Assembly (NCBI RefSeq): GCF_000381085.1 | Contig: NZ_KB905899.1 | Coordinates: forward strand, 1,488,001-1,552,000 | Direction: 5' to 3' | Source of the DNA: Thiomicrorhabdus arctica DSM 13458 | GTDB lineage: Bacteria > Pseudomonadota > Gammaproteobacteria > Thiomicrospirales > Thiomicrospiraceae | Length of the DNA: 64,000 bases | In this document: one piece after another, positions 31,759-41,306 of the stretch | Layout of the letters: each line of letters begins with the position of its first letter | Position numbering within the stretch: position 1 is the stretch's first letter | The notes under the pieces: model-generated | The model's database searches: none | Seen by the model: the letters and a program-made list of their open reading frames with translations, nothing else | What the model was told of the DNA's origin: nothing | Made by a program: the position numbers and the translations under genes

Positions 31759-32490
31759 ATGTTTTTAATTCAGAGAGAAGTCCCATCAGATCCATCCTCT
31801 ATTGCTTACTTCATGGGATGTGCTGGACAAGGAAAAAGTATCGCCATTGATGTGCATAAAGAAGACGTAGAGTGGTTTATAGAACAAGCGGCTCAAAAAG
31901 GGGTCAATATAGACTATGTCATCGATACGCATATTCACGCCGATCACTTTTCTGGTGCCATGGAACTTGCAAAACGCACCGGTGCAAGCTATATGCTTCA
32001 TGAATCATCCACCCCAAACTTTCCATTCACCCCTCTCAAAGACGGTCACAAATTTACCGCGGGTAATGTGGGCGTTGAAGTCTTTCACACTCCAGGACAT
32101 ACCATGGATTCTATTTGTCTATTAGTGACCGATTTTTCACGCGGACCTTTACCTTGGTTTTTAATTTCTCAACACACTCTGTTTGTCGGAAGTGTAGGTC
32201 GACCAGACTTAAGAGGCCATGAAAGAAAAATGGCAGGGCATTTATATGATTCAATTCATAGCAAAATTCTGACACTGCCTGATCACATTGAAATACTACC
32301 CGGGGCTAAAGCGGGAAGCGTGTGTGGTGTAGGACTTTCTGCAAAACCCAGCTCTACCATCGGTTACGAAAAGGCCAACAACGCCTCTCTGAAGTTAACA
32401 AAAGAGGCTTTTATTGAAAAAATTCTAGAGGAATTACCGCCCTTTCCAGACAAAATGGATGAAATCATTAACGCAAATATCACTGGATAA
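31759..32490 (+). CDS. Metallo-beta-lactamase-fold hydrolase, persulfide dioxygenase/glyoxalase II-like
   Basis: A 243-residue cytoplasmic protein. The metal-binding motif THIHADHF gives His58, His60, Asp62 and His63; FHTPGHTMDS and VGSVGRPDLRG follow. The last block resembles the GDxLF/GRxD region of ETHE1/Blh persulfide dioxygenases, which oxidise glutathione persulfide to sulfite. It is followed by an ArsR-rhodanese gene, as in known persulfide-responsive operons. The substrate is inferred from context; glyoxalase II activity is the main alternative. GGAG lies upstream of the ATG. Confidence 0.82.
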   Translation: MFLIQREVPSDPSSIAYFMGCAGQGKSIAIDVHKEDVEWFIEQAAQKGVNIDYVIDTHIHADHFSGAMELAKRTGASYMLHESSTPNFPFTPLKDGHKFTAGNVGVEVFHTPGHTMDSICLLVTDFSRGPLPWFLISQHTLFVGSVGRPDLRGHERKMAGHLYDSIHSKILTLPDHIEILPGAKAGSVCGVGLSAKPSSTIGYEKANNASLKLTKEAFIEKILEELPPFPDKMDEIINANITG

Positions 32491-32549
32491 ATTGAAATTG
32501 GCAAGCCCATGACATATCATTCAATTACTTAATTGAGTAAGGAAAGATA

Positions 32550-33215
32550 ATGTCTGAAATCAAAAAGCAACTTTTTGAACAGCTTGCACTCATCACGCAA
32601 AGTTTAGCTTCGCCACAAAGAATCGAGTTACTCGACTACCTGGCACAGGCTGAACGTAGCGTGGATGAGCTCAGCCAGCTAACCAGTCTAAGCACTGCAA
32701 ACACATCAAGACACTTACAAATCCTAAAGCAAAATGGCCTGGTTTTAATGAGAAAACAGGGTAAAAGCCGACTCTACAAAATTGCCGGTGATGACGTCAT
32801 TCAACTGATTAGTTGCTTGAGAAGAACGGCTGAAAATCATTTAGCGGAAGTAACCCGCCTAAAACAAAATATCCTACCGAGCTATATCGATAAAGAGGCT
32901 ATTTCCAGTAAAGAATTGCTCTCTAAAATGAATACTTGTGCGATTTTGCTACTGGATGTTAGACCCCTTAAAGAGTTTGAGCAGGGTCACATCAAGGGCG
33001 CGGTCAACATTTCGCCTGAATCAATCGAACAAAAAATAAACGATATACCACATGACAAAACGGTTGTTGCCTACTGCAGAGGCCCCTATTGCGCATACTC
33101 ATACCAAATGGTAGAGGCTTTACGTCAAAGAGGGCTTAAAGCACTTAGATTAGAAGAGGGTTTTCCCGAGTGGAAAGCGGCAGGATTACCTTTTGAGATA
33201 AACCAGGTGGTTTAA
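32550..33215 (+). CDS. ArsR-family regulator fused to a rhodanese domain
   Basis: A 221-residue DNA-binding protein. The ArsR winged helix-turn-helix occupies about 5-95 (LASPQRIELLDYL, STANTSRHLQILKQNGLV). A rhodanese domain follows at about 118-215 (LLLDVRPLKEFEQGHIKGA, EEGFPEWKAAG) with the active loop YCRGPYCAYS, whose first Cys (about 175) should carry persulfide. The fusion suggests a repressor whose binding depends on persulfide at the rhodanese Cys. It is the second gene after the MBL hydrolase. AAGGA precedes the ATG. Confidence 0.9.
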   Translation: MSEIKKQLFEQLALITQSLASPQRIELLDYLAQAERSVDELSQLTSLSTANTSRHLQILKQNGLVLMRKQGKSRLYKIAGDDVIQLISCLRRTAENHLAEVTRLKQNILPSYIDKEAISSKELLSKMNTCAILLLDVRPLKEFEQGHIKGAVNISPESIEQKINDIPHDKTVVAYCRGPYCAYSYQMVEALRQRGLKALRLEEGFPEWKAAGLPFEINQVV

Positions 33216-33238
33216 TGCAAAGTAACAGGAGCATATAA

Positions 33239-33856
33239 TTGAAGATTAGACAAAGTGGTATGCCTGATATGGAGTATTGGAACAATTTCTTTGATGCGCC
33301 TCGCATCATTGAAAAACTTTTTACCAACACCCCTCCTGGCAACACCATTGAATTTGGCTGTGGTTACGGAACCTTTACCATGCCTGCCAGCTTACATACT
33401 CAGAAAACCTTATATGCATTCGATATCGAACCTTCAGCAATAAACTCAGTAACCGAATTGGCACACCAACAGCACATTTTCAATATTAAACTACAGCAAC
33501 AAGATTTTATTCAACATGGTACTGGATTAACAGACGAATCTGCCACACACGTTATGATCTATAACCTGCTCCATCTTGAAAACCCAGGTGGACTTTTAAA
33601 ACAAGCTTATCAACTGTTAAAACCCAACGGAGTTTTATCCATAATGCACTGGAGAAGTGATATTGAAACGCCAAGGGGCCCTTCTTTAGAGATTAGACCG
33701 ACACCAGAGCAATCTAAGAAATGGCTAGAGTCGACTGGATTCCATTCAATACAAAAAATTGATATTGAGGTCTATGCCCCTTATCACTTTAGTTATATTG
33801 CAATAAAAGGCTGCAACAACCAGGTTAAAAGGGCTTTAAACTCTAAGAATATATAG
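33239..33856 (+). CDS. Class I SAM-dependent methyltransferase
   Basis: A 205-residue cytoplasmic protein with the SAM-binding motif I EFGCGYGTFT near residue 38, YAFDIEPSAIN near 60 (motif II) and LKPNGVLSIMHW near 130. The start is a TTG at 33239 supported by AGGAG about eight bases upstream; the next ATG (33260) has none. It follows the ArsR-rhodanese gene by 23 bases and is probably in the same operon. The methyl acceptor is unknown; thiol or sulfide methylation would fit the context but is not shown. Confidence 0.8.
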   Translation: MKIRQSGMPDMEYWNNFFDAPRIIEKLFTNTPPGNTIEFGCGYGTFTMPASLHTQKTLYAFDIEPSAINSVTELAHQQHIFNIKLQQQDFIQHGTGLTDESATHVMIYNLLHLENPGGLLKQAYQLLKPNGVLSIMHWRSDIETPRGPSLEIRPTPEQSKKWLESTGFHSIQKIDIEVYAPYHFSYIAIKGCNNQVKRALNSKNI

Positions 33857-33993: not shown

Positions 33994-34437
33994 CTAAAGT
34001 CTAGGTCCGCCGCGACGATTTTTTACACGAGTAAGTAAAGTTTTACAATCCACATCGATAATATGTTCACGTGAAAATAAATGTTCACGTGAAAAACGAT
34101 CTAACGCTTCCGTATCATTCGTTAACGTATGAATATGAAGACTTTTCATATCACTCATAATATATAGACTTACTACTTCAGGACACTCCGCTAATTCATG
34201 CGCAATGGCCTCAATTCCTTGCGGGGCAACTTTTACATCAAGAAAAGCTGACAAAGACTTACCAAGTTTGTCAGGGTTTATAACGGCTGTAAATTGCTCA
34301 ATCATACCTTCATCAACTAGTTTGTGTACACGCTGCCTAACATAAGCACGAGAGACTCCAATCTCTCGTGCTATATCCGCAAATGAAGCACGTCCATTTT
34401 TTATCAATAAATTAATGATATGTGTATCGGTATTCAT
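33994..34437 (-). CDS. Lrp/AsnC-family transcriptional regulator
   Basis: From ATG 34435-34437 (AGGGGGGT upstream) it has 147 residues: an AsnC-type helix-turn-helix at about 5-50 (ASFADIAREIGVSRAYVRQR) and an RAM/AsnC ligand domain at about 65-140. The frame is open 23 codons further up without a ribosome binding site. It is divergent from the porin-TRAP operon and is the likely local regulator of it. The effector, often an amino acid in this family, is unknown. A perfect TTGTATACAA dyad at 34507-34516 could be its site. Confidence 0.87.
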   Translation of the reverse strand: MNTDTHIINLLIKNGRASFADIAREIGVSRAYVRQRVHKLVDEGMIEQFTAVINPDKLGKSLSAFLDVKVAPQGIEAIAHELAECPEVVSLYIMSDMKSLHIHTLTNDTEALDRFSREHLFSREHIIDVDCKTLLTRVKNRRGGPRL

Positions 34438-34506
34438 TTTTAACCCCCCTTGCCTTTTAGAGTTGCTCCAATTTGGTGCGTGAATAAAACAGGTTATTTG
34501 TGTCAA

Positions 34507-34726: not shown

Positions 34727-34743
34727 TTGGCACACCTCCTGCT
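34727..34743 (+). promoter_or_regulatory. Sigma-54 (RpoN) promoter of the porin-TRAP operon
   Basis: The -24 element TTGGCAC and -12 element CTGCT match the RpoN consensus, with exactly ten bases between the invariant GG (34729-34730) and GC (34741-34742). Transcription would start near 34754, giving a 5' leader of about 44 bases with TAGGAG before the porin ATG. Sigma-54 promoters need an enhancer-binding activator, which is not in the window. Confidence 0.82.
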
Positions 34744-34797
34744 AATTGGGTATCTGATAGTTTACAAATGATATGTATATTAATTAGGAGATAAAGA

Positions 34798-35910
34798 ATG
34801 AAGTCTAAAAATCAAAACCGAGCGCTTGGATTACTTGCCTGCGCTCTGACTGGTGGAGCACTGCTTTCAGCAACGCCAATTGCAAATGCTGGCGTGACAC
34901 TTAATATCGATGACGATCGATGGATAAAAATTGGCGCAGGCCTTAGAACAAGTATTACATCCACGGATGCTAAGGATGCTAGTGGCGCTACAATCGCACC
35001 AGATATGGCCGTTAACAATATGCGCTTTTATCTAACAGCTCAAGCTATGAAAGGGATTCAGTTCACCTTTAATACTGAAAAAGATGCTAATGATAATATA
35101 AAGATGTTAGACGCTGCAGCAAAGTTCCATATCAGTGATGCTTTGAATATCTGGGCTGGTCGAGTTTTGATTCCCACCGACAGGGCTAACTTAGACGGGC
35201 CATTCTACCAAGCGTCCTTTGATTTCCCTTCCGTACGAAAGTATCCATCCATTAATGCCGGCAGAGATGACGGTGTCATCTTTTGGGGTCTAGCCAATGA
35301 TAAAAAAGTTAAGTACTACTTTGGTGCTACTCAAGGTCGGTCTGATGCGGGAGGTCCGAATGATTCTGGTAGCTTGCTTTATTCCGGTCGCCTTGCATTG
35401 AATCTATGGGATGCCGAGTCTGGTTACTTTAATCGCAGCACCTATCATGGAACAAAAGATATCCTTTCCTTCGGTATTGGTGGAGCTTACCAAAAGAATG
35501 GTGCAGGAACCGATATTGCGAACCAAGGAGATTTTACAGCCTGGAATGCTGACTTCTTACTAGAGAAGAAACTTGCAACGGGTGGTGTCGGTACGCTGGA
35601 AGGTGCTTATTACTCTTATGACCTTAATGGCGTGACTGACGTTTCCCTTAAAGCAGGAAACTCTTATTTGGTATTGGCTTCTTACCTATTCCCAACAAAA
35701 GTCGGAATTGGGCAATTTCAGCCTTATGCGCGTGTACAGCAGTTTGATTATGACGCAGTTGGTTCTGGAACCATGGATAAAACTGAGCTAGGCATGAATT
35801 ATGTCATCTCTAGTCATAATGCGCTTCTTTCAGCAGTCGTTACCAATACAGATACCGCGGGTTCCCCTTCTGTCAGCACATTTAAGTTAGGCACTCAGAT
35901 TCAATTCTAA
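34798..35910 (+). CDS. Outer-membrane porin
   Basis: A 370-residue protein with a signal peptide (basic start, hydrophobic ALGLLACALTGGALLSA, cleavage after ANA near residue 31). Alternating beta-strand patterns run throughout, and it ends in Phe (LGTQIQF), the signal for outer-membrane barrel assembly. It resembles phosphate-selective/general porins only in layout; no precise family was recognised. It is the first gene after the sigma-54 promoter and 34 bases before the TRAP binding protein, so it probably admits the same substrate to the periplasm. Confidence 0.85.
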   Translation: MKSKNQNRALGLLACALTGGALLSATPIANAGVTLNIDDDRWIKIGAGLRTSITSTDAKDASGATIAPDMAVNNMRFYLTAQAMKGIQFTFNTEKDANDNIKMLDAAAKFHISDALNIWAGRVLIPTDRANLDGPFYQASFDFPSVRKYPSINAGRDDGVIFWGLANDKKVKYYFGATQGRSDAGGPNDSGSLLYSGRLALNLWDAESGYFNRSTYHGTKDILSFGIGGAYQKNGAGTDIANQGDFTAWNADFLLEKKLATGGVGTLEGAYYSYDLNGVTDVSLKAGNSYLVLASYLFPTKVGIGQFQPYARVQQFDYDAVGSGTMDKTELGMNYVISSHNALLSAVVTNTDTAGSPSVSTFKLGTQIQF

Positions 35911-35944
35911 TCAAAATTAAACCAATTTATTTAGGAGTTATAAG

Positions 35945-37048
35945 ATGGATATTAAAAGAAGAAATTTTCTAAAAACTGGACTTGCTGGATTAGCTGCTGC
36001 AGGAGCCGTAACTACTGCAGTCATTCCTTCTGTTGCTAACGCAAGTTCACCCAAAACATTTCGTTGGAAAATGACGAATGCTTATCCTGCAGGAGCACCT
36101 TTTTATTCAAAAGGCCCTGGAAGCGCAAGTTATTTTTGTAAGCGTATAGAAGAGCTATCTGCCGGACGCTTGCGCATTAAACACTATGCTGCTGGTGAGT
36201 TAATTCCAGCAATGGAAGGGTTTGATGCGGTTTCCAAGGGAACCATTGAAATGAACTGGGCGAACTCATACTATTGGGCTGGTAAAACATTTGCAGCACA
36301 ATATTTTACAGCCGTTCCTTTTGGAATGAATTTCCAGGGGACCAATGCCTGGCTACAAGAAGGTGGTGGACAAGAACTTTGGGATGAGGTCTACAAGCCC
36401 TTCAATGTCATGGGATTAGCCGCTGGTAATACAGGTGTCCAAATGACAGGTTGGTTCAATAAGGAGATCAACTCTGTTGAAGACCTAAAAGGACTGCGTA
36501 TGAGAATACCAGGCTTAGCAGGGAAAGTTTATGAACAGCTAGGCGTCAGTGTCAAACTACTTCCTGGTGGCGAAATTTTCCCTGCTTTAGAGCGTGGCGT
36601 TATTGATGCAGCCGAATTTGTTGGACCTTATCAAGATCGTCGCATAGGACTACAAAAAGCGGCTAAATACTACTACACCACAGGGTGGTCAGAGCCAAGC
36701 AATACTACCGAATGTTTAATTAATAAAGACGCTTGGGCGACTTTACCTAAAGACCTACAGGCTATTGTTCAAACGGTTGCCGCTGAGTGTAATCTAATGG
36801 GACTTATGTGGTCAGAAGGAAATAATTCTGAAGCTTTGGATGATTTAATTAAAAACCAAGGTGTTGAAGTACGTACCCTGCCCGACTCCGTCATTGCTAA
36901 ACTAAAAGAAACAACCTTTAAAACTTTTGAAACTTATACAGGGAAAGACCCTTTAGTCAAAAAAGTTCATGAAAGTTATTTCGCATTTAAAGCCAAACAT
37001 GATGCATGGCAAGCACGTAGTGAAGCTATTGTAATGACTAAGCTTTAA
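35945..37048 (+). CDS. dctP: TRAP transporter substrate-binding protein, DctP/TakP type, Tat-exported
   Basis: A 367-residue periplasmic receptor. The leader has a twin-arginine-like start (KRRNFLKTG) and an Ala-rich hydrophobic stretch, with cleavage near ANA at about residue 33. LKGLRMRIPGLAG near 183 holds the family's ligand-binding Arg. VIDAAEFVGPYQD near 220 resembles the metal- and ligand-binding region of the alpha-keto acid receptor TakP. A carboxylate or sulfonate ligand is likely; the exact one is not told by sequence. AGGAG precedes the ATG, and dctQ follows after seven bases. Confidence 0.9.
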   Translation: MDIKRRNFLKTGLAGLAAAGAVTTAVIPSVANASSPKTFRWKMTNAYPAGAPFYSKGPGSASYFCKRIEELSAGRLRIKHYAAGELIPAMEGFDAVSKGTIEMNWANSYYWAGKTFAAQYFTAVPFGMNFQGTNAWLQEGGGQELWDEVYKPFNVMGLAAGNTGVQMTGWFNKEINSVEDLKGLRMRIPGLAGKVYEQLGVSVKLLPGGEIFPALERGVIDAAEFVGPYQDRRIGLQKAAKYYYTTGWSEPSNTTECLINKDAWATLPKDLQAIVQTVAAECNLMGLMWSEGNNSEALDDLIKNQGVEVRTLPDSVIAKLKETTFKTFETYTGKDPLVKKVHESYFAFKAKHDAWQARSEAIVMTKL

Positions 37049-37055
37049 TCAAAAA

Positions 37056-37562
37056 ATGTCATTAGTCACTATATCTCAAAAGCTGGATGCATTCATTGAA
37101 AGCATCGGCCGCTTAAGCGCTTGGTTAATTTTAGCATTAGTTCTCTTGGTTGCTGGTAATGTACTTGCCAGAAACTTCTTCCATGTGAGCTCTGTGGGTT
37201 TACAAGAGCTTGAATGGCACCTACTTGCAGCTATCGCTATTCTTGGGTCTATATACACCTTGCAACAAGGTGAGCACGTTCGTGTAGACCTTTTTTATCA
37301 CACATACTCTCTTAGAGTTAAACGTTGGATGGATATATTAATTCCGGCATTAATTATTTTGCCATTTGCGATTTTTATGATCTACCTAACTACAGATTAT
37401 GCTTTGCAATCATATGGTATGAATGAGGTTTCACCTGATCCTGGCGGCTTACCTTACCGATACCTAGTCAAGGCATTGCTACCTGCCGGCTTCATACTAA
37501 TTGGCCTTCAAGGCTTTGCTCATCTTTTGAAAGCTTTAACACACACTGAACAAGAGTCCTAA
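37056..37562 (+). CDS. dctQ: TRAP transporter small permease subunit
   Basis: A 168-residue membrane protein with four helices, matching DctQ. LQELEWHLLAAIAILGSIYTLQQGEHVRVDLF near 50-80 is the family's conserved block. It pairs with the large DctM subunit in a sodium-driven TRAP transporter. It lies 7 bases after dctP and 3 bases before dctM. Confidence 0.92.
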   Translation: MSLVTISQKLDAFIESIGRLSAWLILALVLLVAGNVLARNFFHVSSVGLQELEWHLLAAIAILGSIYTLQQGEHVRVDLFYHTYSLRVKRWMDILIPALIILPFAIFMIYLTTDYALQSYGMNEVSPDPGGLPYRYLVKALLPAGFILIGLQGFAHLLKALTHTEQES

Positions 37563-37565
37563 CCT

Positions 37566-38891
37566 ATGGAACCTCAATCACTGGCCATTTTAATGGTCAT
37601 TACACTTTTTGCCCTCATCCTAGCAGGCGTTCCCGTTGCGTTTTCAATTGTCGCAGCAGGCGTAGGTTTTGGATTAATGGGAATGGGATTTGATTTATTC
37701 CACCTTATCCCCGCTCGTATTTTTGGAGTCATTACGAACTACACCCTTCTTGCAGTTCCCCTATTTGTTTTCATGGGCGTAATGCTAGAAAAATCCCGGC
37801 TTGCTGAAAAAATGCTCGATGTAATGGGGCACTTAGCTGGAAGAATACCTGGAGGCATGGCCATTTCCATTATTGTTGTTGGTGTGCTGATGGGCGCATC
37901 TACTGGAATTGTTGGCGCAACGGTTGTTACTTTAAGCATGATTGCCCTGCCGACGCTGTTACGCCGCAATTACAGCCACTCTGTTGCTTGCGGCACAATT
38001 TGCGCTTCTGGGACGCTGGGGCAGATTTTACCGCCTAGCTTAGTGCTTATACTGCTTGCCGATATTACTGGTGAAGCCATCGGTCCACTTTTTGCGGCCG
38101 CTTTGATTCCAGGCCTACTGCTCGCGACACTGTATGTTTTATATATTCTTTATCTCGCTTGGAAGTCACCAGAAAAGGTTCCTCCTATTGATTTGGAAGA
38201 AAGACAAAGCTATTCACGTAAGGATTTATGGATTCAATTCTTCAAGTCTGTTGCGCCTCCATTTATTTTGATTTTTGCAGTTTTAGGTTCAATTCTTGGA
38301 GGCGTCGCAGCTCCAACCGAAGCTGCATCTATGGGAGCTCTAGGAGCCTTGTTACTTGTCTTTTTAAGTAAAAGATTGAGTTTGGACGTACTGAAAGGCA
38401 CCTTGCGTGAAACGTTAAAAATAACAGGCATGATTATGTTTGTTCTCATCGCCGCCCAGATATTTGGATTGAGTTTTAGAGGGCTTGATGGGGATTATTT
38501 AATAGAGGATCTCTTTTCAATCATTCCTGGCGGTGAATGGGGTGCAATATTCTTTATGATGTTGCTTCTGCTTGTTCTAGGGTTTTTCTTAGAATGGATA
38601 GAGATTTCTTATATTGTATTACCTTTGGTATTACCTATATTTCATGCCTTAGGTGTTGATATGGTCTGGCTTGCCATATTAGTAGCGCTTAATTTACAGA
38701 CTTCATTTTTAACACCGCCCTTTGGTTGGTCATTGTTTTTCCTCAAAGGGGTTGCTCCTCCTGAAATAAAGACGATAGAAATTTATAAGGGGGTTCTTCC
38801 ATTTATTGGAATGCAAGTCAGCGTTATTGGTTTGGTTATGCTTTTCCCTGAAATAGCACTATGGCTACCTAAAGCCATTGGTTGGAGTTAA
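37566..38891 (+). CDS. dctM: TRAP transporter large permease subunit
   Basis: A 441-residue membrane protein with about 12 helices, the transport channel of the TRAP system. Family blocks include VPLFVFMGVMLEKS near 60-73, GASTGIVGATVVTLSMIALP near 110-128, GTLGQILPPSLVLIL near 147-160 and LTPPFGWSLFFLKGV near 380-394. It follows dctQ by 3 bases, and the next gene starts one base after its stop. Confidence 0.94.
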   Translation: MEPQSLAILMVITLFALILAGVPVAFSIVAAGVGFGLMGMGFDLFHLIPARIFGVITNYTLLAVPLFVFMGVMLEKSRLAEKMLDVMGHLAGRIPGGMAISIIVVGVLMGASTGIVGATVVTLSMIALPTLLRRNYSHSVACGTICASGTLGQILPPSLVLILLADITGEAIGPLFAAALIPGLLLATLYVLYILYLAWKSPEKVPPIDLEERQSYSRKDLWIQFFKSVAPPFILIFAVLGSILGGVAAPTEAASMGALGALLLVFLSKRLSLDVLKGTLRETLKITGMIMFVLIAAQIFGLSFRGLDGDYLIEDLFSIIPGGEWGAIFFMMLLLLVLGFFLEWIEISYIVLPLVLPIFHALGVDMVWLAILVALNLQTSFLTPPFGWSLFFLKGVAPPEIKTIEIYKGVLPFIGMQVSVIGLVMLFPEIALWLPKAIGWS

Positions 38892-38892
38892 T

Positions 38893-40488
38893 ATGAAACA
38901 TTTTCCGGAAACACAAATTGCAGAAAATGGCATGGTGGTGGCTCCGCACCACTCTGCCGCGGATGCAGGATTAGATATTTTAAAGTCGGGTGGTAATGCG
39001 ATTGAAGCAGCTATCGCCACAGCAGCATCACTTTCCATTCACTATCCTCATATGACAGGAATTGGTGGCGATGCTTTCTGGCTTATTTATGACCCAGAAG
39101 AAGGGGTCAGTTTTATTGAAGCCTCAGGGTATTCAGGCTCTAAAGTAAAGTCTGAACTCTATTCTGAGGTGCATGAAATCCCATTTAGAGGAAAGCTCGC
39201 AGCAAATACTGTTGCAGGTGCAGTTTCAGCTTGGTCTTTAGCATTTCAAAAAAGTCAGGACGAATGGCTAGGAAGCATGAATGCTTCTGAGCTGATGTCT
39301 GAGGCTGTTTCCGCAGCTAATAATGGCATTACAGTTACCCCTTCGTTAGCCGAAACATTAAAAGACAAAGCCAGTGAACTTCAATTGGATCCCTTTTTTG
39401 CCGACGTTTACTACCCTAAAGGAAATGTACCCAAGACTGGAGAATCATTAACTCAAACAGCATTGGGAAATACGTTAAAAAATATAGGCTATAAAGGGTT
39501 CGATGATTTTTACAGAGGACAGTTATCAGAAGACATTGCGCATGACTTTGCTCACCGCCAAGGTTTTTTAACTCATGAAGACCTTAAAAGTCATCATGCA
39601 ACATGGCAACCCTATCTTGAGTTGGAAACCTCGCATGCAAAATTATTTAATGCTTCAGCACCTACTCAAGGCGTGGCTTCGTTGATGATTTTAGGGTTAT
39701 TCGATCGGTGGACGGAGAAATTACCCGATATAGACTCTGCTGACTATGTGCACTTACTGGTAGAAGCTACCAAGATTGCATTTTCACACCGAAACCGCAT
39801 GGATACCTCTGCAACACCTGAAGAACTTCAAGCCTGGTTAGAACCAGAGTATTTGGACCAATTAAGTAAACAAATCGATTTGGATAAAGCGATACCTTGG
39901 GGAGAGCAGACCTCTCCAGGTGATACCACTTGGTTTGGCGTTATTGATTCTAAAGGGCGAGTAGTGAGTGCTATACAGAGTATTTACCATGAATTTGGAA
40001 GTGGATTAATGCTCCCTAAAACAGGTATTGTTTGGCAAAATAGAGGCTGTAGTTTTTCGCTAGATCCTACTAATATTCGTGCATTAGCACCTCATAAAAA
40101 ACCCTTCCATACGCTAAATCCTGCAATCGCTTTATTTAAGGATGGTCGTGTTATGGCCTATGGAACAATGGGGGGGGATGGACAGCCTCAGACACAAGCT
40201 GCTGTTTTTTCCCGCTATGCTTACTATGACGAAGATTTACAAACGGCTATAAATAAACCCCGGTGGCTCCTAGGTCGAACCTGGGGTAATTCTTCCGAGA
40301 GTTTAAAGTTGGAATCCCGTTTTCCTGATAACTACCACTCTCTTCTTCGCGAAAAAGGGCATGATTTTGAATGGTTATCCCCTTTAGATTCTGCCGTAGG
40401 TCATGCAGGTGCATTAGTACGCCACACCACATCAACAATAGAAGGGGCTTATGACCCTCGAAGTGATGGCAAGGCCTCTGGATTTTAA
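38893..40488 (+). CDS. Gamma-glutamyltransferase-family Ntn hydrolase, cytoplasmic
   Basis: A 531-residue member of the gamma-glutamyltranspeptidase superfamily, which transfers or hydrolyses gamma-glutamyl or related amide groups and matures by self-cleavage at a Thr. GDTTWFGVIDSKGRVVS near 343-359 holds the expected nucleophile Thr. HYPHMTGIGGDAFW near 50 is the N-terminal block, and the last residues resemble a GGT end (AYDPRSDGKASG). There is no signal peptide, unlike classical periplasmic GGT, so it acts in the cytoplasm like YwrD-type members. ATG 38893 (GGAG upstream) is preferred over TTG 38878. The position in a TRAP operon suggests it acts on the imported compound. Confidence 0.87.
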   Translation: MKHFPETQIAENGMVVAPHHSAADAGLDILKSGGNAIEAAIATAASLSIHYPHMTGIGGDAFWLIYDPEEGVSFIEASGYSGSKVKSELYSEVHEIPFRGKLAANTVAGAVSAWSLAFQKSQDEWLGSMNASELMSEAVSAANNGITVTPSLAETLKDKASELQLDPFFADVYYPKGNVPKTGESLTQTALGNTLKNIGYKGFDDFYRGQLSEDIAHDFAHRQGFLTHEDLKSHHATWQPYLELETSHAKLFNASAPTQGVASLMILGLFDRWTEKLPDIDSADYVHLLVEATKIAFSHRNRMDTSATPEELQAWLEPEYLDQLSKQIDLDKAIPWGEQTSPGDTTWFGVIDSKGRVVSAIQSIYHEFGSGLMLPKTGIVWQNRGCSFSLDPTNIRALAPHKKPFHTLNPAIALFKDGRVMAYGTMGGDGQPQTQAAVFSRYAYYDEDLQTAINKPRWLLGRTWGNSSESLKLESRFPDNYHSLLREKGHDFEWLSPLDSAVGHAGALVRHTTSTIEGAYDPRSDGKASGF

Positions 40489-40499
40489 GGATAAAAATA

Positions 40500-41306
40500 A
40501 TGAATGAACTACTAATTTTACTACCAATTTTATTAATTAGCGGCATGATTGCTGGGCTATTAGCTGGGCTATTAGGTGTAGGCGGGGGCATTGTGATTGT
40601 CCCAATGCTCTATCATATTTTTATTTATCTGAATATTGATATATCTATTGCAATGCCATTGGCCATAGGAACTTCACTATCCACCATTGTCGTCACATCG
40701 GTTATGTCCGTTAGAGCCCATCATAAAAAAGGCGGTATTGATTGGGGCTTAGTAAGGGTTTGGTTGCCATTTGTAATAGTAGGGGTGTTTATAGGAGCCT
40801 TTTCCGCCAACTTTATTGATGGCATAACCTTGAAGGTTATGTTTGGAATTTTGCTTTTAGTGATCTCTCTTCATATGATAATAAGCACGAGAATGAGTTT
40901 AGTTATAGCTAAACAGCTTCCGAGCCCTCCTGGACAACCTATTTTTGCGACTTTTCTAGGGTCATTTTCTTCAATCTTAGGGATTGGCGGAGGAACATTA
41001 ATGGTTCCCTTATTAACACTGTTTTCTTACCCAATACATAAAGCAGTCAGTACTGCATCTGTATTTGGTTTAGTCATCAGTATTCCTGCAACAATCGGAT
41101 ATATTCTTATTGGCTGGGATGTACCGAACTTGCCTACAGGGTCAACAGGCTATGTTAACTGGCTTGGTTTTATAGCTTTAGTACCAATGACAATGATTTT
41201 CGCACCTATAGGGGTTAAGCTAGCATATCGCCTTAATGTTACACAGCTAAAAACAGCCTTTGCAATTTTTCTAGCACTTGTTGGAATTAAGATGCTTTTA
41301 GTGTGA
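40500..41306 (+). CDS. TauE/SafE-family permease
   Basis: A 268-residue inner-membrane protein with about eight helices. Two repeats carry the family's Gly-rich signatures GLLGVGGGIVIVPML near 24-38 and LGIGGGTLMVPLL near 160-172. The family is linked to export of sulfite or sulfoacetate and related anions, though some members import. It is last in the porin-TRAP-GGT operon (11-base gap) and precedes a terminator. Export of a breakdown product is inferred. Confidence 0.88.
   Translation: MNELLILLPILLISGMIAGLLAGLLGVGGGIVIVPMLYHIFIYLNIDISIAMPLAIGTSLSTIVVTSVMSVRAHHKKGGIDWGLVRVWLPFVIVGVFIGAFSANFIDGITLKVMFGILLLVISLHMIISTRMSLVIAKQLPSPPGQPIFATFLGSFSSILGIGGGTLMVPLLTLFSYPIHKAVSTASVFGLVISIPATIGYILIGWDVPNLPTGSTGYVNWLGFIALVPMTMIFAPIGVKLAYRLNVTQLKTAFAIFLALVGIKMLLV

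Follow-up and report, generated by a model that had tools for sequence, protein, structure and literature searches.

The hydrolysis of oxamate is known from the hpx purine/urate cluster of Klebsiella, whose enzyme HpxW (PDB 5hft) is stated in a review to convert oxamate to oxalate and ammonium (PMC5270733). Oxamate itself arises from the AllFGH oxamic transcarbamylase branch of allantoin fermentation in Escherichia coli, in which anaerobic cells are reported to turn 19.5 mM allantoin into 17.7 mM oxamate, and is called there a dead-end product of the fermentation (PMC11326118); oxamate also counts as a dead-end metabolite in the E. coli network (PMC3781023). Described transporters that bear comparison are TakPQM, a tripartite ATP-independent periplasmic (TRAP) system for 2-oxo acids (PMC1839085), and the oxalate/formate antiporter OxlT. 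Here we describe a six-gene operon from a 64,000-nucleotide stretch of the genome of Thiomicrorhabdus arctica DSM 13458 (contig NZ_KB905899.1, positions 1,488,001 to 1,552,000), hereafter called the window. It is probably a nitrogen-regulated oxamate-scavenging operon, which would import oxamate, hydrolyse it and export the oxalate.

The operon is a new arrangement of known families. Its fifth gene encodes an enzyme of the same type as Klebsiella HpxW, with the same residues at the compared active-site positions. However, hpxW stands with PucG-, AllC- and AtzE-like genes in the locus of a Klebsiella michiganensis protein (L070) and in other Enterobacterales loci, whereas the window enzyme stands with a TRAP importer and a TauE permease. 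The receptor of this importer shares the carboxylate and sodium ligands of TakP but differs from it in the cavity wall. The TauE permease adjoins hpxW as OxlT-type permeases do in seven other loci, although OxlT belongs to the MFS and the window permease to the TauE/SafE family. Oxamate, the dead-end product of the AllFGH branch, is the proposed substrate here. The path laid out in the initial annotation of the window, from entry through the outer membrane and TRAP import to cytoplasmic cleavage of an amide and export of a product, is supported by our analysis. The identities of the features, read from the sequence, are as follows.

33994-34437, minus strand: Lrp/AsnC-type regulator (lrp), divergent from the operon (Pfam AsnC helix-turn-helix and ligand domain, AsnC_trans_reg)
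34465-34479, plus strand: NtrC-like dyad GCTCCAATTTGGTGC, candidate site (GCNCN7GTGC)
34728-34743, plus strand: sigma-54-type -24/-12 site TGGCACACCTCCTGCT (GG, ten bases, GC)
34798-35910, plus strand: outer-membrane porin, ExtI-like, below cut-off (open reading frame call)
35945-37048, plus strand: DctP, TRAP receptor of the TakP/keto-acid type with a Tat-like signal (Pfam DctP, 196.5 bits)
37056-37562, plus strand: DctQ, small TRAP permease subunit (Pfam DctQ, 80.7 bits)
37566-38891, plus strand: DctM, large TRAP permease subunit (Pfam DctM, 270.4 bits; TIGR00786, 323.9 bits, cut-off 268.45)
38893-40488, plus strand: HpxW-type enzyme of the gamma-glutamyltransferase (GGT) superfamily, 531 residues (Pfam G_glu_transpept, 409.5 bits)
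40500-41306, plus strand: TauE/SafE-family permease (Pfam PF01925, 179.1 bits, cut-off 32.6)

The gaps inside the operon are 34, 7, 3, 1 and 11 bases, as the initial annotation had them, but they join six genes and not five; the divergent Lrp-type regulator that it named is confirmed by both Pfam domains. The gene for the HpxW-type enzyme starts at an ATG, with an in-frame TTG at 38878, and lrp also starts at an ATG, with an upstream TTG at 34506 in the list of open reading frames. The porin reached 106.5 bits with the ExtI-porin model, the cut-off of which is 150, and had zero matches in Pfam. The whole genome comprises 2.55 Mb in 6 contigs and contains two matches to the RuBisCO large chain over the cut-off; we infer that the host is an autotroph.

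The hydrolase of the GGT superfamily

Of the solved structures, the closest to the enzyme is 5hft, an entry titled 'Crystal structure of HpxW', whose two chains reached 264.8 and 240.9 bits. Among the other solved chains, a 'cephalosporin acylase' reached 232.0 bits and the E. coli GGT precursor 157.9 bits. The K. michiganensis protein L070, which is 49% identical to the window enzyme, has 5hft as its sole match at the threshold used. The primary paper on Klebsiella HpxW is reportedly that of Hicks and Ealick from 2016.

We aligned 92 HpxW-like sequences with L002 (1447-3198; G000:C1:38983-40386), the second GGT-family protein of the genome, which matches E. coli GGT best among solved structures and whose N-terminus is signal-like by eye. 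The nucleophile of the window enzyme aligned at Thr345 (codon 39925-39927), and no signal peptide was seen in this enzyme by eye. At the positions that we take to bind the gamma-glutamyl group, equivalent to R114, N411, Q430, D433, S462 and S463 of E. coli GGT, L002 retains binding residues (R, N, E, D, S and S), and both the window enzyme and L070 have S, Y, R, S, H and T. The window enzyme is identical to the K. michiganensis HpxW at all nine compared positions. The nucleophile Thr is invariant in all 92 HpxW-like sequences, as are the Tyr, Arg and Thr at the positions of Asn411, Gln430 and Ser463, respectively. The Asp433 position is occupied by S in 82 sequences, A in 8 and G in 2, the Ser462 position by H in 91 and T in 1, and the Arg114 position by C in 58, S in 33 and A in 1. 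The sequence allows the enzyme to be assigned to the HpxW type with high confidence, and this protein, labelled as a GGT, is very probably an oxamate amidohydrolase. Homologues in 25 plasmid records are called gamma-glutamyltransferase (14), 'putative gamma-glutamyltransferase YwrD' (1) or oxamate amidohydrolase (1), or are nameless (9); the assignment would correct the common gamma-glutamyltransferase label of HpxW homologues.

Gene neighbourhoods of hpxW

Within the same order, an HpxW-like gene (E 1e-60 or better) was found in 12 of the 62 genomes surveyed, the window's own included. Four of them encode close orthologues of the window enzyme (77-88% identity). The complete set, with lrp divergent from porin-dctPQM-hpxW-tauE, is present in G005 and G025, and G046 contains dctPQM-hpxW-tauE on a contig that starts within dctP. 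The fourth genome, G049, has neither TRAP genes nor tauE within the 17 kb taken. Its enzyme, 77% identical to that of the window and 87% to that of G025, is encoded next to hydroxyisourate hydrolase, urate oxidase, the allantoinase PuuE and OHCU decarboxylase. A nearly identical enzyme is part of a urate pathway in one genome and of a TRAP operon in a congener.

The enzymes of the remaining seven genomes are 44-46% identical to that of the window, and tauE adjoins hpxW in all seven. The order amidase-hpxW-tauE-PucG-AllC-RraA-like-deaminase occurs in six of these genomes. In L021, the amidase, allantoate amidohydrolase, RraA-type protein and 8-oxoguanine deaminase are over their family cut-offs, and a ureidoglycine-glyoxylate aminotransferase matches 3nnk with 637 bits; a query for this aminotransferase gave one 37% match in the window's own genome. 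The seventh genome (L020, 3061-14340) combines hpxW-tauE with an ABC importer, a short-chain dehydrogenase-like gene, a RidA-like gene (by eye), a formamidase (over the cut-off), a cytosine-permease-like gene of the NCS1 type (below the cut-off), a 75% identical Lrp and a -24/-12 site. Loss of gene order in relatives had been named by the initial annotation as a refuting result, and the order is kept. A Tsx-like outer-membrane channel was noticed by eye near the ureide clusters of L018 (269-1138) and L021 (156-2093), the latter also with a basic-membrane-protein-type ABC receptor nearby (by eye); the channel and the receptor suggest nucleoside or purine uptake separate from TauE.

Further afield, genome contigs were scanned and the best 80 of 588 HpxW relatives were examined, many of which belong to Polynucleobacter and Enterobacterales, and the fractions are not natural frequencies. 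Among these 80, dctM lies on the same strand up to 1.5 kb upstream of hpxW in 21, and a PucG-like gene is near hpxW in 17. Locus L025 (4466-14172), from a Campylobacteraceae metagenome-assembled genome in which a binning error is possible, contains dctPQM-hpxW-tauE without lrp. Its HpxW is 72% identical to that of the window and clusters with the window clade in the tree (6 rows, support 100). The flanks hold a ureidoglycolate-lyase-like gene (over the Pfam and below the NCBIfam cut-off), a ureD-like gene, and urtC, urtD and urtE, all three over their cut-offs. The locus is an island of organic-nitrogen genes and may represent a cross-phylum transfer.

Variants of the operon also occur in other Gammaproteobacteria. 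Marinobacterium mangrovicola DSM 27697 (L059) has lrp-dctPQM-tauE-hpxW, and in two genomes of other gammaproteobacterial families lrp is divergent from dctPQM-hpxW-tauE (G328) or from dctPQM-tauE-hpxW (G144), with identities to the window of 69-71% for DctP, 65-73% for DctM, 61-73% for Lrp, 46-51% for HpxW and 51-53% for TauE. Among the genomes, the porin was matched in G005 and G025 only; among the loci, it is conserved in L014 and L016 and was not matched in L025, L189 and L191, in which dctP is the first gene. A plasmid of Azospirillum has tauE next to hpxW, with an ABC transporter and genes of the xanthine-dehydrogenase type after them, and a plasmid of Acidithiobacillus caldus carries a 42% relative preceded by an AtzE-family amidohydrolase and hpxZ. 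On a quick tree of 97 rows, with contexts assigned by hand from the neighbour surveys, the minimum number of changes was 12 for TRAP linkage, 5 for TauE, 5 for OxlT and 8 for purine context. The A. caldus sequence (L123), whose branch in the first tree was very long, is left out of this one, and the neighbour survey lost five of 84 loci (L036, L065, L095, L103 and L121).

The TRAP receptor and the TauE permease

The nearest solved chain to DctP is 7ug8, a ketoacid-binding protein, and TakP (2hzk) is among the next. In the published account of TakP, Arg177 and Tyr100 grip the carboxylate of pyruvate, Na+ is held by Gln156, Glu214, Glu240 and the backbone of Trp215, and the cavity is hydrophobic, lined by F40, I47, V97, P243 and V245 among others; its authors expected polar ligands to bind poorly (PMC1839085). 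The window DctP keeps the grip, with Y110, Q166, R187, E224 and E250 at the positions of Tyr100, Gln156, Arg177, Glu214 and Glu240, and has F225 in place of Trp215, which acts via its backbone. These residues agree with the carboxylate ligand that the initial annotation expected of a TakP-like receptor. The five wall positions of TakP, however, are occupied by Y, Y, N, N and T. In a comparison of 27 HpxW-linked DctPs, 26 of them full-length and one (L015) incomplete, Arg177, Glu214 and Glu240 are invariant, as is Gln156 in the 26 sequences that cover it. All five wall positions are polar in 15 of the 26 full-length proteins, including that of the window; the other 14 have Y, Y, N followed by N, T (7) or T, S (7), and L015 has N, T.

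Oxamate shares its carboxylate and carbonyl groups with pyruvate and differs in having an amide NH2 where pyruvate has a methyl group. The combination of the kept grip with a polar wall would suit oxamate as a polar mimic of pyruvate. DctP is thus TakP-like in its grip and probably not in its ligand, and oxamate is a fairly likely candidate for that ligand. A structure prediction of DctP, built from six rows, had a mean pLDDT of 39.9 and was set aside. A second type of DctP, found in L038, L051, L055, L057, L060, L061, L064, L067, L072 and L083, belongs to Polynucleobacter and relatives, keeps the TakP grip and has F, I, A, S and Y in the wall; it may stem from a TRAP system that was recruited independently.

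TauE is linked to HpxW in L014-L016, L018-L025, L059, L121, L189 and L191, and stays beside it in TRAP-importer, ABC-transporter and ureide-enzyme contexts alike. An OxlT-type permease adjoins hpxW in seven loci: L028, L044, L050, L084, L085, L094 and L124, the last on a plasmid. The two genes lie on opposite strands in L044 and share a strand in the other six. The four permeases tested (L124, L028, L044 and L094) all score above the TIGR04259 cut-off for oxalate/formate antiporters. Because TauE stays with HpxW and OxlT-type permeases adjoin HpxW elsewhere, we favour oxalate export as the likelier function of TauE. This assignment of the cargo comes from linkage rather than from a sequence signature. 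The initial annotation had considered export of a sulfur anion; the partners of the permease and the OxlT-type permeases of other lineages point to oxalate instead.

A profile of 14 HpxW-linked TauE proteins, run on 274 genomes of the class, gave 50 matches at E 1e-70 or better, and 30 of the loci were examined, one being the window's own. Two of the six best matches outside the window are linked to HpxW (G144 and G328), and four (G199, G317, G180 and G227) have no HpxW within 14 kb. An HpxW-specific subfamily of TauE was rejected, since similarity of TauE alone fails to predict the linkage. A tree that split the 14 linked from 12 unlinked TauE proteins (100/100) was given little weight; all the unlinked proteins belonged to the order of the window, 8 of the 20 unlinked loci had been dropped because no reading frame passed the filter, and long branches were flagged. 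In the genome, the best match to oxalyl-CoA decarboxylase reached 199.3 bits, with a cut-off of 739.4, and oxalate decarboxylase had no match, these two being the only routes of oxalate use searched for.

Regulation, proposed mechanism and alternatives

The site TGGCACACCTCCTGCT has one mismatch to TGGCACN5TTGCW and lies 54 bases upstream of the ATG of the porin gene. The initial annotation had recognised it as an RpoN promoter with GG and GC ten bases apart, which stands, and had placed it one base further away, at 55. RpoN-like patterns with up to two mismatches occur at 40 sites in the 64 kb, near the chance expectation of 36.6, and the pattern TGGCAYN7GCW occurs four times, with 2.4 expected. 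The latter pattern is present in all seven lrp-flanked loci (the window, L014, L016, L020, L059, L189 and L191, which are not all independent), 64-105 bases before the end of the intergenic region, and in 2-8 of 1000 dinucleotide shuffles per stretch; it was set down after most of its sites were known. The weight of the sigma-54 site derives from its conservation in these loci and not from the rarity of the bare pattern. The prediction of a sigma-54 promoter, made also by the initial annotation, is well supported by this conservation.

The candidate dyad GCTCCAATTTGGTGC follows a motif that is presumably NtrC-like. GCNCN7GTGC was found in five of the seven lrp-flanked loci, and in 1-4 of 1000 shuffles for the window, L014 and L016, 32 for L059 and 111 for L191; the whole window contains four such dyads, with 4.6 expected. 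The genome encodes RpoN (216.6 bits) and an NtrC equivalog (654.5 bits, cut-off 558.6). Relatives of the Lrp-type regulator occupy the same position in L014 (96% identity), L016 (91%), L189 (73%) and L191 (61%), and others are found beside the L020 cluster and, in L059, upstream of dctP (phmmer, 196 bits). NtrC control of the operon is at most moderately supported by these patterns, and nitrogen control fits the chemistry of oxamate use. Strict NtrC patterns gave no match at the P-II genes (L107 and L108), where GG-N10-GC and GGTGC half-sites were noticed by eye in one stretch upstream; neither observation was used as evidence.

The following mechanism of oxamate use can be envisaged. Under nitrogen shortage, NtrC acting on sigma-54 RNA polymerase would turn the operon on, and the Lrp-type protein probably acts as a co-regulator. 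The porin may admit oxamate across the outer membrane, and DctP would bind it together with a sodium ion in its TakP-type pocket with a polar wall. Oxamate imported by DctQM would be cleaved in the cytoplasm to ammonia and oxalate by the HpxW-type N-terminal nucleophile (Ntn) hydrolase. The ammonia would be retained by the cell, and the oxalate would presumably be carried out by TauE.

Several observations weigh against this proposal. Of the best 80 of 588 HpxW relatives, 42 lack a dctM directly upstream and also a PucG-like gene in the vicinity (in one of these, L033, dctPQM is divergent), and tauE is adjacent to hpxW in two, L025 and L059; the tauE of L039 is distant, weak and on the opposite strand. 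HpxW lies within about 1.5 kb of a high-scoring TauE in two (G144 and G328) of the 29 loci examined besides the window. The polar wall pattern is absent from 11 of the 27 linked DctPs (ten Polynucleobacter-like and one from SAR116), and the Tyr100 position, although Tyr in the window, is Phe in 11 of 26. The NtrC-like dyad is missing from L020 and L189 and matches easily by chance in GC-rich stretches, and L025 has neither the -24/-12 pattern nor the dyad in 350 bases.

Another role of TauE, in export of sulfite or sulfonate or as a second importer, with oxalate leaving otherwise or being used, is rather unlikely. The family is named for sulfite/sulfonate export in Pfam, TauE proteins of similar score stand without HpxW in 27 of the 29 loci, and the sequence does not reveal the ligand. 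Yet TauE accompanies HpxW beside TRAP, ABC transporter and ureide-degradation genes alike, an OxlT-type oxalate/formate antiporter adjoins hpxW in other lineages, and no sulfur-metabolism gene was noticed in the six-gene operon. It is less likely still that the TRAP-linked enzymes hydrolyse another small amide resembling a 2-oxo acid, for example that of a 2-oxo diacid, and that the matching acid is exported. The DctP pocket indicates a 2-oxo-acid-like ligand without naming one, and HpxW-type enzymes that are 45-50% identical across branches leave room for a shift of substrate, but the high identity of the G049 enzyme from the urate cluster to those of the window and G025 and the agreement of the compared active-site positions with Klebsiella HpxW argue for oxamate.

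It is very improbable that the enzyme is a cytoplasmic gamma-glutamyltransferase or gamma-glutamyl amidase to which a TRAP importer supplies gamma-glutamyl compounds. This reading would account for the Pfam G_glu_transpept match and for the top whole-chain fold match of the structure model of the enzyme (pLDDT 75.2), the GGT precursor 2e0w (Z 40.2). However, the predicted fold fails to separate HpxW from GGT; whole GGT-type precursor chains outrank 5hft, which is split into two chains, in the fold search. The score with the GGT equivalog TIGR00066, 330.7 bits, is under the cut-off of 357.85, as is that of Klebsiella HpxW (323.2 bits), and the genome has a separate GGT, L002, with the binding residues and the signal-like N-terminus. 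The gamma-glutamyl substrate put forward in the initial annotation was rejected on the replacement of all six binding positions, on HpxW being the closest solved relative and on the occurrence of relatives in urate and ureide clusters.

In titles and shown abstracts of the open-licence literature, no description of an oxamate transporter or of an operon of this kind was found. It is about as likely as not that the operon is a dedicated oxamate-scavenging cassette that has moved between Gammaproteobacteria and Campylobacterota; as far as literature searches show, its TRAP system would be the first to be proposed as specific for oxamate, and its TauE the first member of that family to be proposed as an oxalate exporter. 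If oxamate scavenging is true, autotrophs could use the nitrogen of purine-derived waste left by allantoin fermenters such as E. coli and discard the carbon as oxalate. The proposal supplies a consumer for dead-end oxamate, a possible cross-feeding link in organic nitrogen cycling, and candidate substrates for two groups of transporters that are hard to predict, the polar-wall subtype of TRAP receptors and some TauE proteins.

A separate set of genes is located at 31759-33856 on the plus strand of the window. It encodes an MBL-fold protein resembling hydrolases of the persulfide-dioxygenase type, an ArsR-type regulator with a fused rhodanese domain, and a SAM methyltransferase.

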